DNA of 20,743 bases from a virus. Position numbers and translations under genes: made by a program. Positions within the stretch are counted from its first letter, which is position 1; every line of letters starts with the position of its first letter. The stretch lies in IMG/VR virus record IMGVR_UViG_3300034095_000859, positions 1 to 20,743 of that record; one strand, 5' to 3'. The notes under the pieces were generated by a model. It had not been told where the DNA came from. It worked only from the letters and a program-made list of their open reading frames with translations, and did no database searches. Shown piece by piece: positions 9,648-20,743 of this stretch.

Positions 9648-9815
9648 ATGAATAAAAAATTAAAAGAACTATTTATTAAATCAGGCTTAACAAAAGCCGA
9701 GTTTTCCCGAAAGTGCGGAATTAAAAAACAGAATCTTAATCCGTATTTAACCGATTTGTACGAAATGAAATTATCAACTTTCGAAAAAATAAAAAAGAAT
9801 TATTTGCGTAATTAA
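9648..9815 (+). CDS. Cro-like HTH regulator, 55 residues
   Basis: A short protein (MNKKLKELFIKSGLTKAEFS onward) carrying a lambda-repressor-type helix-turn-helix at about residues 14-36 (LTKAEFSRKCGIKKQNLNPY), with little beyond it, as in minimal Cro proteins. It has no peptidase or oligomerisation domain. The ATG is chosen because an earlier ATG at 9643 runs straight into a stop. The gene lies between two copies of an 18-bp palindrome; its own TAA at 9813-9815 is inside the second copy. It is therefore the leading candidate for the repressor that acts at the four palindromic promoters, including its own. Binding is inferred. Confidence 0.8.
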   Translation: MNKKLKELFIKSGLTKAEFSRKCGIKKQNLNPYLTDLYEMKLSTFEKIKKNYLRN

Positions 9816-9864
9816 ATTTTATTACACTATCTTTGACAAATATTAATACAAAAACAAAACAAAC
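9800..9864 (+). repeat. Duplicated promoter-leader, copy 1
   Basis: Bases 9800-9825 are identical to 14031-14056. After a short divergent stretch, both copies continue with TTTGACAAATATTAATA (9832-9848 and 14062-14078) and an A/C-rich leader of AAAACAAAACAAA type up to the ATG. The copies differ only in the -7 region and a few leader bases. Confidence 0.8.
9803..9835 (+). promoter_or_regulatory. Promoter of the early/recombination operon with operator
   Basis: TTTG at 9803-9806 (-33), 21 bp spacer, TATCTTTG at 9828-9835 (-7). The palindrome GTAATTAAATTTTATTAC (9808-9825) fills the spacer, so a bound protein would block RNA polymerase. The HTH gene stop codon lies inside it. Confidence 0.8.
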
Positions 9865-14030: not shown

Positions 14031-14095
14031 TTATTTGCGTAATTAAATTTTATTACTTAAATTTGACAAATATTAATAACAAAACAAAACAAAAA
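14031..14095 (+). repeat. Duplicated promoter-leader, copy 2
   Basis: Second copy of the promoter-leader at 9800-9864. The first 26 bases are identical and the leader is nearly so. It lies in front of a different operon, which suggests duplication by recombination of a regulatory module. Confidence 0.8.
14034..14065 (+). promoter_or_regulatory. Promoter of helicase-methylase operon with operator
   Basis: TTTG at 14034-14037, 20 bp spacer, TAAATTTG at 14058-14065. The palindrome GTAATTAAATTTTATTAC (14039-14056) is identical to the copy at 9808. A leader of 30 bases rich in A and C leads to the first ATG. Confidence 0.85.
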
Positions 14096-16599: not shown

Positions 16600-16628
16600 A
16601 GCCGCTGAAGAAATTTAGCGGTTTTTTT
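16600..16628 (+). terminator. Intrinsic terminator of the helicase-methylase operon
   Basis: AGCCGCT (16600-16606) pairs with AGCGGTT (16617-16623), one G-U pair, 10-nt loop. The T-run begins in the last stem bases and ends at 16628. Confidence 0.85.
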
Positions 16629-16635
16629 ATATCTT

Positions 16636-16668
16636 TTTGTTATTTATTCAAAAAAAGTATTATATTTG
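16636..16668 (+). promoter_or_regulatory. Promoter of the replication operon, no operator palindrome
   Basis: TTTG at 16636-16639 (-33), a 21 bp spacer and TATATTTG at 16661-16668, an exact TAnnTTTG -7 box. Unlike the other four boxes it has no GTAATTA palindrome. The transcription start is expected around 16672-16675, directly at the first hairpin of the leader. Confidence 0.8.
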
Positions 16669-16671
16669 TAC

Positions 16672-16771
16672 TCGTAATGTAGTGAGACACGTTACAAAAC
16701 CGAAAATATTATAAAAATCCTATCAGGAAGGCGAGTCTCACACCAGCCAACTTGATGGGATTTTACTTTTT
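16672..16771 (+). ncRNA. Structured leader RNA with possible kissing loops
   Basis: The first hairpin is GTAATG/CGTTAC (16674-16679 with 16690-16695). Its 10-nt loop holds GTGAGAC (16682-16688). The second hairpin has a 12-pair lower stem (16714-16725 with 16753-16764, one G-U), two further pairs (16726-16727 with 16751-16752), a 2x2 A-A internal loop and a three-pair cap GGC/GCC. Its 13-nt terminal loop holds GTCTCAC (16735-16741), the exact complement of the first loop. The complementarity is seen in the sequence; a kissing complex and any control of the replication operon are inference. It could be a leader or a short RNA. Confidence 0.55.
16714..16771 (+). terminator. Possible attenuator in the replication operon leader
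   Basis: The second leader hairpin (AAAATCCTATCA with TGATGGGATTTT at its base) is followed by a U-rich TTTTACTTTTT. An AC pair interrupts the U-run, so termination would be partial. It lies 40 bases before the first start codon and could act as an attenuator. Confidence 0.45.
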
Positions 16772-16810: not shown

Positions 16811-17044
16811 ATGGCAAATTTTGAATTAAAATTTTTAGATTCAAGAAAAAAAATGTTTATTACAGTAAACGCAACTCCTAAGGGTAATTACGAATTTTTT
16901 GAAGATTATATTAAAATAAATCTTGGAGAATTTGACGGTCAAGAATTATGGATTAATCTTGATAAAAGTACCGCTATTAAATTTGCCAAAACACTTCGTA
17001 CAGAAATAAACAAAATTACAGAAAGCGAGGTTTCTAATGAATAG
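16811..17044 (+). CDS. First gene of the replication operon, unknown
   Basis: A 77-residue protein (MANFELKFLDSRKKMFITVN onward) with an alternating beta start, an acidic middle and a helical C-terminus (AIKFAKTLRTEINKI). It is probably a small beta-alpha domain. No motif is recognised. It overlaps the replisome organiser by 8 bases, so the two are co-translated. It may be an accessory DNA-binding or regulatory protein for replication, by context only. Confidence 0.6.
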   Translation: MANFELKFLDSRKKMFITVNATPKGNYEFFEDYIKINLGEFDGQELWINLDKSTAIKFAKTLRTEINKITESEVSNE

Positions 17045-17726
17045 CTATGAATTATCTCGAAAATGGTTTGATTGGAGTTTTGAAAATCCTGAAAAAATAA
17101 GTCCTAACCATTCCGCTTTATATTTTTTTGCAATTGAACATTGTAATAGATTAGGATGGAGAGAAAAATTTGGTTTTCCAACTGAAATGGCAAAAGATGC
17201 AATAGGTATAAAATCTTATAATACTTATGTTAAAACTTTAAATGATTTAGTTGATTGGGGTTTTATAAAAATGATCCAAAGAAGTAAAAATCAATATTCA
17301 GCTAACATAATTGCACTATCAAATTTTAATAAAGCACTTGATAAAGCACTTGATAAAGCAATAGTAAAGCACGTAACAAAGCAAGATGAAAGCATTGATA
17401 GTATAGATAAACCAATAACCAATAAACCAATAAACGATAATGACCATTCGGTCAATTGGGATGGACTTCTTTTACAATTTAATTCTATAACAGGAAAAAA
17501 ACTAAAAGTAGTTTGTGATAAATCTAAAAGGCAAATAAACGCAAGGTTAAAAGAAGGTTATTCTAAATTGGATATTGTTAACGCAATTACAAATTGTTTT
17601 AATGATGATTACCACAAAGAAAACCCTAAATATTTAACATTGGAATTTATAAGCCGACCTGATAAGATGCAAAAATACGCTCAAGAAATTAAAAAAGCAA
17701 AACCTAAACAACAAGACCGACTATGA
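17037..17726 (+). CDS. Phage replisome organiser / replication initiator
   Basis: A 229-residue protein with a helical, probably winged-helix N-terminal part (1-95; KFGFPTEMAKDAIGIKSYNT followed by LVDWGFIKMIQRSKNQYSAN). A low-complexity linker (about 99-140) and a C-terminal domain (about 141-215; LLLQFNSITGKKLKVVC, INARLKEGYSKLDIVNAI, YLTLEFISRPDKMQKYA) follow. The C-terminal part matches the conserved phage C-terminal domain found in replication proteins (TIGR02220 type). By analogy with lambda O it binds the origin and recruits the helicase. The linker-coding DNA carries an iteron-like repeat array. The helicase gene lies two genes downstream. Confidence 0.8.
   Translation: MNSYELSRKWFDWSFENPEKISPNHSALYFFAIEHCNRLGWREKFGFPTEMAKDAIGIKSYNTYVKTLNDLVDWGFIKMIQRSKNQYSANIIALSNFNKALDKALDKAIVKHVTKQDESIDSIDKPITNKPINDNDHSVNWDGLLLQFNSITGKKLKVVCDKSKRQINARLKEGYSKLDIVNAITNCFNDDYHKENPKYLTLEFISRPDKMQKYAQEIKKAKPKQQDRL
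17331..17454 (+). other. Putative intragenic replication origin (iteron array)
   Basis: Six AAAGCA units begin at 17331, 17343, 17355, 17366, 17378 and 17389, spaced 12, 12, 11, 12 and 11 bp. The first two share the 12-mer AAAGCACTTGAT. The 11-bp steps break the codon frame, so selection acts on the DNA. They are followed by AT-rich DNA with three ACCAAT units (17411, 17418, 17426) and the inverted repeat TGACC-ATTC-GGTCA (17441-17454). The array lies inside the initiator gene, as in lambda O. Confidence 0.55.
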
Positions 17727-18235
17727 GTAAGCCAAATTTAAAAAAGTCTTTTGAGTGGTTGTTTGAAAGATTTACAAAGGAAACTATTAAGCCGTGCCAA
17801 TTTGATTTAGACTGTTTGGTAAGCATAGCAGAAAAAACAAATGAAATAAACAAAGAAGCGTTTCAGGAAAATACTATTTTTGCCAAGATGTATGTTTATT
17901 GTTTAATGCACGAATTAGAATTTTACAAGGATATTGACTTTGCAACTAAAAAACTAAATGAGGTTTTAGATGCACCTTTAGAAAAAACGTGTGATGATTT
18001 TTTAAATAGATTAAATCACTTAGAATTAAATAAGTATTTAAAATCAATCGGAATTAATACGGATCATTTAAAACAATTGACAAAAGAAGAAGAAATAAAA
18101 CAAGGCGTTTTAATGAATGAAAATAAAAAAAATATACAAATATATGTTTTAGGTAAATTCACAAAGGAAAACGTGTTTAAATCGATTAATAATGCAATTA
18201 CAAACTGTATTATTAATTTTAAAAACAAAAATTAG
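17723..18235 (+). CDS. Replication-operon protein, unknown
   Basis: A 170-residue, mostly helical protein (MSKPNLKKSFEWLFERFTKE onward). It starts with an ATGA overlap to the initiator gene. It is rich in Lys and Glu and has no nucleotide-binding or metal motif. Between the replisome organiser and the helicase, a helicase-loader or replication-accessory role is attractive but unsupported. I do not recognise the family. Confidence 0.6.
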   Translation: MSKPNLKKSFEWLFERFTKETIKPCQFDLDCLVSIAEKTNEINKEAFQENTIFAKMYVYCLMHELEFYKDIDFATKKLNEVLDAPLEKTCDDFLNRLNHLELNKYLKSIGINTDHLKQLTKEEEIKQGVLMNENKKNIQIYVLGKFTKENVFKSINNAITNCIINFKNKN

Positions 18236-18242
18236 TAAAAAT

Positions 18243-19124
18243 ATGGAAATTAATATACCAAAAATAGAAATTGGAAAACAAAACGAAATAATAAAAGGCA
18301 CAAACTTTTTAGATATTTTTAAAAATAGTTATGTTGATCCTTCGGAAGAAATAAAACCGCAACCAGTTGCAATAAGTATAGGTTCTTCTGAATATAAAGG
18401 CATAAATTACCCTATTCCGTTCGGATCTTATGGAGATTTTTCTTGTATAGTCGGAGCTTCTAAAAGTAGAAAAACATTTTTTAAGTCTATGATTGAAGCA
18501 GCTTATATTGGCGGTGCTTCTAATATTTACAATCCTTCGATTAAAGGTCATAATACTAAAGATAAACTGATAATATCAATTGATACAGAACAATCAAAGC
18601 ACCATACTCAAAGAGTAGTGAGAAGGGTTTTAGATTTAGTCGGTTCTAACTATGATTTATATAAAACTTTTTCTTTGCGTACATATTCGCCAAAAGAACG
18701 TTTTGAGTTTATAAATTGGTTAGTTTATGAGAGTGAATTTAAAAAAGATATTGGATTGATGTCTATAGATGGTTATGTAGACCTGGTAACAGATTTTAAT
18801 AGTCTTGAACAGGCTACAGGATTAACCGAAAAGCTACTTGAATGGACAGCACGTAAAGAAGTAAAAGAACAAATGCACATTACAGGTATTTTACATAAGA
18901 ATTTTGGAACTGCTAAACCTGTAGGACACGTTGGCTCAAGTGTTTTAAAGAAAGCTGAAACAGTTGTATTTATAGACAAAGAAGAAGAAATCTCAAGCGC
19001 AAAATGTGAATATAGTCGTAATATGGAATTTAAAACTTTAAATTTTGGAATAAATAAAGATTGGTTGCCTTACGAAATTGAAGAAGGAATAGTAGTTAAT
19101 AACAAAAAAGAAGTATCATTCTAA
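18243..19124 (+). CDS. RecA-fold replicative helicase-like ATPase
   Basis: A 293-residue protein starting at the ATG at 18243. An earlier in-frame ATG at 18192 would overlap the previous gene by 44 bases and adds a 17-residue unlike extension. Walker A is GASKSRKT (71-78), IDTEQS at 113-118 holds the likely catalytic Glu, and a hydrophobic GLMSIDG (171-177) gives Walker B Asp176. This layout matches RepA/DnaB-like RecA-fold ATPases (AAA_25 type). The Walker A Gly before Lys is Arg, a variant. It probably loads on the origin as the phage helicase. A one-base TAATG overlap joins the resolvase. Confidence 0.8.
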   Translation: MEINIPKIEIGKQNEIIKGTNFLDIFKNSYVDPSEEIKPQPVAISIGSSEYKGINYPIPFGSYGDFSCIVGASKSRKTFFKSMIEAAYIGGASNIYNPSIKGHNTKDKLIISIDTEQSKHHTQRVVRRVLDLVGSNYDLYKTFSLRTYSPKERFEFINWLVYESEFKKDIGLMSIDGYVDLVTDFNSLEQATGLTEKLLEWTARKEVKEQMHITGILHKNFGTAKPVGHVGSSVLKKAETVVFIDKEEEISSAKCEYSRNMEFKTLNFGINKDWLPYEIEEGIVVNNKKEVSF

Positions 19125-19450
19125 TGGATATAAAATTACATATTAAACCGATGTCGATTAATAACGCTTTTAAAGGTCGTAAATTCAGGACAAAAGAATA
19201 TGATATTTTTATAGTTCAGTGTTTACGATTGCTTCCGAATAAAATAGAAATACCTGATGAAACAAATATAAAACTTGATTTGGAGTTTGGTTTTAGTTCT
19301 CGAGCCAGTGATATTGATAATTGCGTAAAAACTTTTATAGATTGCTTGGTTAAGAAGTACAAAGTAGATGACCGATTTATATACGAATTGCATACTTTTA
19401 AAACAATCGTAAAAAAAGGCGAGGAGTTTATACGTTTTAAAATATACTAA
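19124..19450 (+). CDS. rusA: RusA-family Holliday junction resolvase
   Basis: A 108-residue protein with the RusA signature: SINNAFKGRKFRTKEY (11-26), the catalytic cluster ASDIDNCVKTFIDCL (61-75; D63, D65, D73) and VDDRFIYELH (81-90; D82, D83), followed by a conserved Lys. RusA dimers cut four-way DNA junctions that arise in phage recombination and replication. The length is slightly under the usual 115-140. Its position directly after the helicase in the replication operon fits. No key residue seems missing. Confidence 0.88.
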   Translation: MDIKLHIKPMSINNAFKGRKFRTKEYDIFIVQCLRLLPNKIEIPDETNIKLDLEFGFSSRASDIDNCVKTFIDCLVKKYKVDDRFIYELHTFKTIVKKGEEFIRFKIY

Positions 19451-19657
19451 ATGAAATTAGCCGATAAAATAGAATTATTTAAAAAAAACAATCCTGACAG
19501 ATTAGAGCATACCTTTAAAAATGGTTTAATATTCAAAGGAAGCGGAAATTATAGGTTGCATTGGTGGATTGATAGCCTTTATAAAGATGCTGTAAATGAG
19601 TGGAATACAAAAAAAGAAAAAAATATTGCAAATTTTTTAGAAAAATGTATTGCGTAA
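19451..19657 (+). CDS. Small protein ending inside an operator, unknown
   Basis: A 68-residue basic protein (MKLADKIELFKKNNPDRLEH onward) that begins directly after the resolvase stop. It has a central GSGNYRLHWWIDSLYKDA with conserved-looking Trp residues, and no known motif. Its stop codon (19655-19657) is inside the fourth operator palindrome, so binding of the repressor there would also touch the end of this gene. Function unknown. Confidence 0.6.
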   Translation: MKLADKIELFKKNNPDRLEHTFKNGLIFKGSGNYRLHWWIDSLYKDAVNEWNTKKEKNIANFLEKCIA

Positions 19658-19679
19658 TTAAAATTTATTACGATATTTG
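19649..19679 (+). promoter_or_regulatory. Promoter of the last small-gene operon with operator
   Basis: ATTG at 19649-19652, a 19 bp spacer and GATATTTG at 19672-19679 (one mismatch to TAnnTTTG). The palindrome GTAATTAAAATTTATTAC (19654-19671) fills the spacer. The first ATG is 31 bases downstream, after an A/C-rich leader. Confidence 0.75.
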
Positions 19680-19710
19680 CTAAAGATAACAACAACAAAA
19701 CACAAATATT

Positions 19711-19923
19711 ATGACAACTATTCAATCACACAAAGTACACACTAAAGTAGCAAAAGTTTTAAGATTTTCAGGATATAAAGCTACTTGTGTAAGAAATGCA
19801 AGTTTTGACTTTAATAATTATGAAGTTGAAATAAAAGGAATTAAAGAAAATGAACTAAAAGAATTATACAATGTAGTTTTTGGAATTTTTAATAATACAA
19901 TGATTAATTTAATAGCTAAATAA
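19711..19923 (+). CDS. Small early protein, unknown
   Basis: A 70-residue mixed alpha/beta protein starting MTTIQSHKVHTKVAKVLRFS, with basic first half and acidic middle. It is the first gene after the fourth operator promoter. No domain recognised. The next gene starts one base after its stop. Confidence 0.6.
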   Translation: MTTIQSHKVHTKVAKVLRFSGYKATCVRNASFDFNNYEVEIKGIKENELKELYNVVFGIFNNTMINLIAK

Positions 19924-19924
19924 T

Positions 19925-20131
19925 ATGACACCAAAAGAAAAAGCAGCAGAGTTAATTGATAAATTTACTTACTGGAATACAAGTGAAGCCGAAAGGGAAG
20001 GAATAAAAAGCGCTTTGCATTGTGTAGCTGAAATTATAGGAGTAAAATTATTATGGTTTCAAAAAGACACAAAAGAAATAGAATACTGGCAAGAAGTAAG
20101 AAATGAAATAGACAAAATAAATAATTTATAG
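19925..20131 (+). CDS. Small helical early protein, unknown
   Basis: A 68-residue protein starting MTPKEKAAELIDKFTYWNTS. Short proteins with this type of N-terminus are frequent in phages and prophages of Flavobacteriia, but I know no function. It is predicted all-helical, with an amphipathic pattern and several Trp. It is packed between its neighbours with 1-2 base gaps. Confidence 0.6.
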   Translation: MTPKEKAAELIDKFTYWNTSEAEREGIKSALHCVAEIIGVKLLWFQKDTKEIEYWQEVRNEIDKINNL

Positions 20132-20133
20132 TT

Positions 20134-20619
20134 ATGACACTAACAGAAATAAAAGAAATCTTTAACATAGATTTAAAAGCAAAAAACAGAAAACATCACG
20201 TTTTATTTTTAAGGAATCTATATTTTAATCAGCAATATAATATTTATCAAAGGACTATCTTTAATATTGCTCACGAATTAGAAATGAATAGAGAATCTTT
20301 GTATAATTCACTATTTAAAACTAAATTTTATGAAGAAGATCAAAACTATCAAATGATAAAAAAAGCATTTGAAACAAAAGATTTTAAAATGTACTCGGAT
20401 GCTTGTTATATCATTAAGAATAAAACTTACCCTCCAGTACCTACGGAATTTAAACCTAAAAGAAATAAACCGTTTAAAAAAGCTGAAAAGATGCCTGAGG
20501 TTAGATGGCACTATTTAAGAATAATTGAAACTTTACGCAAAGATAATAAAAATAGTCTTTGGGAAAAACCTATGAAGGAGTTTACAATTAATGATTATAA
20601 AATTTTAGAATCTTTATAA
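20134..20619 (+). CDS. Helical protein with possible HTH, unknown
   Basis: A 161-residue protein. Residues 20-62 (RKHHVLFLRNLYFNQQYN, then RTIFNIAHELEMNRESLYNS) look like a helix-turn-helix with some resemblance to the C-terminal DNA-binding helices of DnaA. The later part is rich in Lys and Pro (EFKPKRNKPFKKAEKMPE near 115-133), suitable for nucleic acid binding, and ends in a short helical domain. It is a candidate DNA-binding regulator or replication accessory; the family is not recognised. Confidence 0.6.
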   Translation: MTLTEIKEIFNIDLKAKNRKHHVLFLRNLYFNQQYNIYQRTIFNIAHELEMNRESLYNSLFKTKFYEEDQNYQMIKKAFETKDFKMYSDACYIIKNKTYPPVPTEFKPKRNKPFKKAEKMPEVRWHYLRIIETLRKDNKNSLWEKPMKEFTINDYKILESL

Positions 20620-20632
20620 ATATTCGTTTTAA

Positions 20633-20647
20633 CGGCGATTAACGCCG
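20633..20647 (+). other. Intergenic hairpin and AT palindrome
   Basis: CGGCG (20633-20637) pairs with CGCCG (20643-20647) around ATTAA. It is followed by AAATAAG, so it is not a + strand terminator. A perfect palindrome TTAAAATTTTAA lies at 20655-20666, and TGGG/CCCA (20677-20680 with 20694-20697) could form a weak hairpin before the last start codon. Possible leader structure; no promoter box is visible. Confidence 0.4.
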
Positions 20648-20709
20648 AAATAAGTTAAAATTTTAAATAAAACTTCTGGGCGGAGTAATAAAACCCAAAA
20701 CCAAATATT

Positions 20710-20743
20710 ATGAATACAGTACAAAACGCACCAATGACAAATG
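20710..20743 (+). CDS. Start of a gene cut by the window end
   Basis: An ATG at 20710 in an A-rich context (CCAAATATTATG), open to the end with MNTVQNAPMTN. The same AAATATTATG context precedes the gene at 19711. Too little is present to identify the product. Confidence 0.45.
   Translation, partial: MNTVQNAPMTN

Follow-up and report, generated by a model that had tools for sequence, protein, structure and literature searches.

Contacts of 7-8 bp between variable loops are formed by ColE1 RNAI/RNAII and CopA/CopT, and in phages the pairing of RNA with RNA in an operon leader brings about early termination or repression, as in the P4 CI/P1 C4 RNA. An analogous layout is found in the guanidine-IV (mepA) riboswitch, where the loop of an upstream hairpin kisses the loop of the terminator hairpin in the leader; according to one proposal (PMC11611296), this kissing loop makes the terminator dissociate and favours read-through. 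The put RNA of phage HK022 is described, in the relevant part of one account (PMC9378689), as two stem-loops downstream of early promoters.

We analysed a leader in a 20,743-nt stretch of viral DNA (positions 1 to 20,743 of IMG/VR record IMGVR_UViG_3300034095_000859; hereafter “the window”) that resembles each of these systems in part. It shares with ColE1 RNAI/RNAII and CopA/CopT a 7-8 bp loop-loop contact near replication genes, but the contact lies within one molecule rather than between sense and antisense RNAs, and leaders of this kind also precede non-replication genes. Like P4 CI/P1 C4 it shows RNA-RNA pairing in a phage operon leader, although here the pairing is intramolecular and loop-loop, and some of the carriers are lytic phages. 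From the guanidine-IV riboswitch it differs in lacking an Rfam match and in preceding phage early genes rather than guanidine exporters, and because its loop sequences change freely among relatives, no invariant ligand pocket is visible. With put it has in common two hairpins at the start of an early phage transcript and more than one copy per phage, whereas the relevant part of the put account (PMC9378689) reports a minor-groove triplex and no kissing loops, and the host belongs to another phylum.

A sequence-only reading had proposed that the leader of the replication operon is a kissing-loop RNA with an attenuator, and every coordinate it gave for the hairpins and the loop complementarity proved correct on direct reading and folding of the sequence (Table 1). 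When the window was scanned for two hairpins with complementary loops, the leader was the top-ranked site (score 66.7, against a best score of 60.9 among ten Markov-shuffled windows), and its folding energy is -35.3 kcal/mol, compared with -22.7 for shuffles (z = -3.85). Hairpin 1 begins 5 nt after the TATATTTG promoter element, and transcription would start at about 16673-16676; a seventh pair, T16680-A16689, is possible in the unpseudoknotted fold, which leaves a loop of 8 nt. Upstream, a terminator-like hairpin (16600-16623) separates the leader unit from the preceding methyltransferase gene. Hairpin 2 went unreported by promoter/terminator prediction, its 13-nt loop exceeding the 8-nt loop limit of that procedure. 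Two other promoters in the window (9804-9835 and 14035-14065) have in common an imperfect palindrome, TTGCGTAATTAAATTTTATTAC, located between -33 and -7, and the leaders that follow them, ACAAATATTAATA..CAAAACAAA, are short and unstructured; at the first of these promoters lies a small HTH-like ORF (9648-9815).

Table 1. Features of the leader and the adjoining genes in the window, with leaders of related phages that precede HNH genes (positions prefixed by locus)
Feature	Position	Strand	Basis or arrangement
Promoter, Bacteroidota-type, TTG (16637-39)-N21-TATATTTG (16661-68)	16637..16668	+	sequence
Kissing-hairpin leader RNA	16674-16764	+	order: promoter, hairpin 1, linker, hairpin 2, U-rich stretch
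Hairpin 1: 6-pair stem 16674-79/16690-95, 10-nt loop 16680-89	16674..16695	+	sequence, fold, covariation
Kissing strand 1, GTGAGAC, in hairpin 1 loop	16682..16688	+	two-hairpin scan, covariation, loop match in relatives
Linker, A/U-rich, single-stranded, contains AAAATATTATA, conserved in part	16696..16713	+	alignment
Hairpin 2: outer stem of 14 pairs (16714-27/16751-64), internal loop, cap, 13-nt loop	16714..16764	+	fold, covariation
Hairpin 2 internal loop, AA/AA	16728-29/16749-50	+	tandem G.A in most relatives
Hairpin 2 cap, GGC/GCC	16730-32/16746-48	+	sequence
Hairpin 2 apical loop, 13 nt	16733-45	+	sequence
Kissing strand 2, GTCTCAC, exact complement of GTGAGAC	16735..16741	+	scan, covariation, relatives
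U-rich tract after hairpin 2, terminator-like, TTTTACTTTTT	16761..16771	+	sequence; T counts in the family
Hairpin 3, CGGT-AUCUUAAA-ACCG, conserved loop, 4-bp stem, 8 nt before the 77-aa start codon	16787..16802	+	covariation
77-aa ORF, first gene of the replication operon	16811..17044	+	homologues, predicted beta4-alpha fold
Replication initiation protein (O-like)	17037..17726	+	PHROG 428 and 18020
HNH-linked leaders	L003:3027-3110, L040:1136-1218, L055:1548-1624, L119:5253-5332, L219, L235

Relatives were gathered by three routes: 80 IMG/VR loci were retrieved via the 77-aa protein encoded directly downstream, 38 further loci via the neighbouring replication protein, and phages of Flavobacterium, Cellulophaga and Olleya by BLAST. 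Nearly all of their leaders follow the same plan in the same place, yet with completely different loop sequences (for example CTCTCAC/GTGAGAG, GTGGAACG/CGTTCCAC, GTCGAGAG/CTCTCGAC and CGGGCAGG/CCTGCCCG). The loops match far above chance: among 66 distinct leaders gathered via the downstream gene, with the RNA playing no part in their selection, 60 show complementarity of 7 bp or more between the two loops, as against 7.6% when loops of different sequences are combined and 1.4% for shuffled ones, and most of the six leaders below 7 bp represent a hairpin missed by our simple parser. Aligning the closest 30 sequences gives a kissing helix of 8 pairs, 6 of which show changes in both partners, and 99.2% of its cells are paired; pairing over the whole structure is 97.6%, dropping to about 40% in slid registers, and none of 500 shuffles reached any of five measures. 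Across 68 matches to covariance model R1, every one of the 20 stem pairs has changed in both partners, and pairing covers 94.6% of cells, compared with at most 45% when slid. Two of these rows are true sites matched in antisense, and the alignment, having been fitted to the model, leans toward structure. One relative (L014) is near-identical to the window in its upstream sequence and has a different, compensated kiss (GTGAGATTT/AAATCTCAC) as well as a different, fully compensated hairpin 2 stem (CCGATA/TATCGG).

Comparison with relatives could also have revealed loss of the loop complementarity and of the second stem; its outcome favoured the structure, and two loops with conserved, covarying complementarity, as expected of a kissing-loop RNA, were found. 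On this comparative evidence, which strongly backs the kissing-loop part of the sequence-only reading, we regard the structured RNA and its kissing contact as real, and since evolution preserves the kiss through paired changes, the kiss must matter.

The common anatomy of the family can be read from 68 non-redundant members (<80% identity). A kiss was a condition of the scan that selected them, and their kiss lengths of 7-10 bp (61 different sequences) therefore provide no independent test. Hairpin 1 has a stem of 4-9 pairs, the linker is about 15 nt long, and the outer stem of hairpin 2 comprises 6-14 pairs. GA occurs on both strands of the hairpin 2 internal loop in 43 of these members, where 9 are expected, which identifies a tandem G.A motif of which the AA/AA loop of the window is a degenerate form. 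A strict TAnnTTTG is present in 61/68, usually 1-6 nt before hairpin 1. In all 68, the 8 nt that follow the last G/C of hairpin 2 are rich in T (mean 6.0, minimum 4, with only 4-5 in several members), the control count after hairpin 1 having a mean of 2.2.

The leader always precedes a gene, with the start codon within 3-54 nt in the measured set. Replication-operon leaders place the U-tract about 45 nt upstream of the start codon, and the distance from hairpin 2 to the start codon is 3-27 nt in direct leaders, those of homing endonucleases included. These short distances, and the protection that a structured 5' end could give a transcript, would suit a 5'UTR element for mRNA stability or translation in which the U-rich stretch serves as an open ribosome-loading region. 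We consider this quite improbable, as a U-tract about 45 nt from the start codon, with hairpin 3 in between, does not fit a ribosome site, and the spacing to the start codon varies while the U-tract does not.

In our preferred reading, the leader probably acts as a stop-or-go signal for DNA-replication and other early genes. A constant U-tract directly after a stable hairpin, in a position between promoter and start codon, points to an intrinsic terminator and so to an attenuator, which these features of sequence make the likely interpretation; the attenuator part of the sequence-only reading is thus borne out indirectly, through the universal U-tract and the promoter-gene position, where the kissing-loop part has covariation behind it. 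The fuller proposal, that the attenuator works in cis, with hairpin 2 terminating transcription and the kiss from hairpin 1 modulating it, has in our estimation an even chance of being right. As RNA polymerase leaves the TTG/TAnnTTTG promoter, hairpin 1 would be the first part of the transcript to be made, at its 5' end, and a kiss of 7-10 bp would then join its loop to the apical loop of hairpin 2. The second hairpin and the U-tract would serve as an intrinsic terminator at which some transcripts stop after about 100 nt while the rest enter the operon, and the kiss would set or change the terminated fraction, most likely via the speed or completeness with which the base of hairpin 2 closes. 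An RNA-binding protein, elongation speed or a ligand are candidate triggers. Termination at hairpin 2, an effect of the kiss on it, the direction of that effect and any trigger are all what we infer.

Competition between kiss and termination, as had been suggested from the sequence, is a plausible switch by analogy with the guanidine-IV riboswitch, which offers the nearest working model for this leader. The kiss touches the far end of a stem of 14-17 pairs, the base of which need not be disturbed. No conserved antiterminator helix was found, the arms of hairpin 2 pairing elsewhere no better than in shuffled sequence. A competing antiterminator helix is not required in all attenuators, and the kiss itself could take its part. 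A model in which the kiss acts through strain on the linker gained no clear support and was set aside, linker length and stem/stack length being negatively rather than positively correlated; in half the members the linker is about long enough to bridge the stack.

The RNA is carried by Flavobacterium, Cellulophaga and Olleya phages (among cultured isolates morran9-1, mumin6-1, phi19:1, phi10:1 and Harreka_1) and by many IMG/VR contigs, at the heads of early operons; in a whole-record search with a second model, 38 of the 44 longer IMG/VR records match, the E-values of the RNA models being rough. The replication operon has one copy, also in phages whose replication proteins are of another type, as in mumin6-1 (helicase and VapE). 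Some phages have further copies, each between a promoter and a start codon and with other loop sequences, before genes for HNH (NUMOD4) and GIY-YIG homing endonucleases, Erf, YopX, a DNA methyltransferase and an SNF2-type helicase (names read from translations, from PHROG matches of window homologues or from record annotation), and one record (G012) has four copies with four different kisses. A whole-locus scan gave 114 matches, compared with 13 in equal-sized shuffled sequence, numbers that depend on the threshold and to which fragmentary contigs may hide additional copies. The description of the element as the leader of the replication operon therefore holds for the copy found there but is too narrow, as the copies at all these other genes rule out an element confined to that operon. 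Close versions of the leader (kiss GTCGTCG, GTGGTCG or GTGGACG) lie before HNH homing-endonuclease genes of different phages, a sequence pattern which suggests that leader and HNH gene travel together. The annotated hypothetical protein morran91_gp042 (L002:4035-4178), which overlaps both the promoter and the leader RNA, probably does not represent a gene.

Location at the very 5' end of early transcripts in several early operons, with two hairpins, is also what an RNA that modifies RNA polymerase in the manner of HK022 put, for anti-pausing or antitermination along the operon, would show. This we hold to be very unlikely: the U-tract always follows hairpin 2, whereas put RNA, to our knowledge, has no U-tract or terminator tail; the + strand of 16811-20743 contains no terminator-like site in need of suppression; and copies before single homing-endonuclease genes would gain little. 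Loops as diverse as those seen here resemble specificity loops, and a compact pseudoknotted RNA with a terminator-like 3' end could be a separate product of ~100 nt, ending at hairpin 2 and acting in trans on host factors or, like P4 CI or P1 C4 RNA, on other phage leaders, with read-through secondary. For greA/rnk it has been proposed that an attenuated leader also serves as a trans RNA (PMC2965389). The invariable position close before a gene and the several copies per phage with different loops speak against such a product, which we think unlikely. Lysogeny genes were not found by the authors in the muminphages, the group that includes the carrier morran and mumin isolates (PMC7077304), so that prophage immunity is unlikely there. 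The cis-acting attenuators could also form an RNA-only phage regulon, in which each early operon's own promoter-proximal kiss would decide between termination and read-through without a dedicated protein and loops would be kept different against cross-talk, a proposal that we regard as something of a long shot.

Downstream of the U-tract, hairpin 3 retains its stem through compensatory changes (CGGT/ACCG, AGGT/ACCT, CCGT/ACGG, CAGT/ACTG, CTGT/ACAG and GGGT/ACCC). In L031 and in L004/L086/L184 an inserted small ORF parts the kissing RNA from hairpin 3, and the two are therefore separate modules; hairpin 3 belongs to the 77-aa gene, of which its sequence and position would possibly make it the translational operator. 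BLAST matches to hairpin 3 in gut phages (L186-L188) were dismissed as chance, the kissing RNA being absent there, and a search of 84,980 bacterial and archaeal species, each represented by one genome, yielded neither the hairpin-3 pattern nor a confirmed relative of the 77-aa protein. Homologues of the 77-aa protein (L007-L086) have near-invariant ends (MAKFELKFLD ... LDKSTAIKFAKTLRTEINKITESEV) and a hypervariable middle, and swaps of this middle are independent of the RNA leader. Its AlphaFold model has a beta4-alpha fold, with best structural matches, at modest Z of up to 7.0, to the single-strand nucleic-acid binders PUR-alpha, MRP1/2 and PC4. Individual examples argue against a link between RNA type and protein variant: L008/L011/L036 have the same RNA with different proteins and L064/L068 the same protein with different RNAs.

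That the leader is not a recognisable riboswitch or sRNA agrees with searches of Rfam 15, which returned no match above the gathering cut-off in the window or in 18 loci with diverse copies, and only chance-level matches of the leader below threshold. The rnk leader (RF01772), likewise a hairpin followed by a terminator-like hairpin, is a near-miss that spans the leader, but at 17.6 bits against a cut-off of 55 (E = 1.1) it is at chance level. No published description of such an RNA was found in the open-access literature. Judged by these sequence comparisons, the window leader is one member of a sizeable family of structured RNAs that matches nothing in Rfam and whose covariation, the tertiary loop-loop contact included, is very clean. 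Gene regulation in flavobacterial phages has been little studied, and the family is located at their early genes; the cultured carrier phages make termination and loop-swap tests directly possible. If the kiss controls termination, the leader would be a natural, easily reprogrammed kissing-loop switch.
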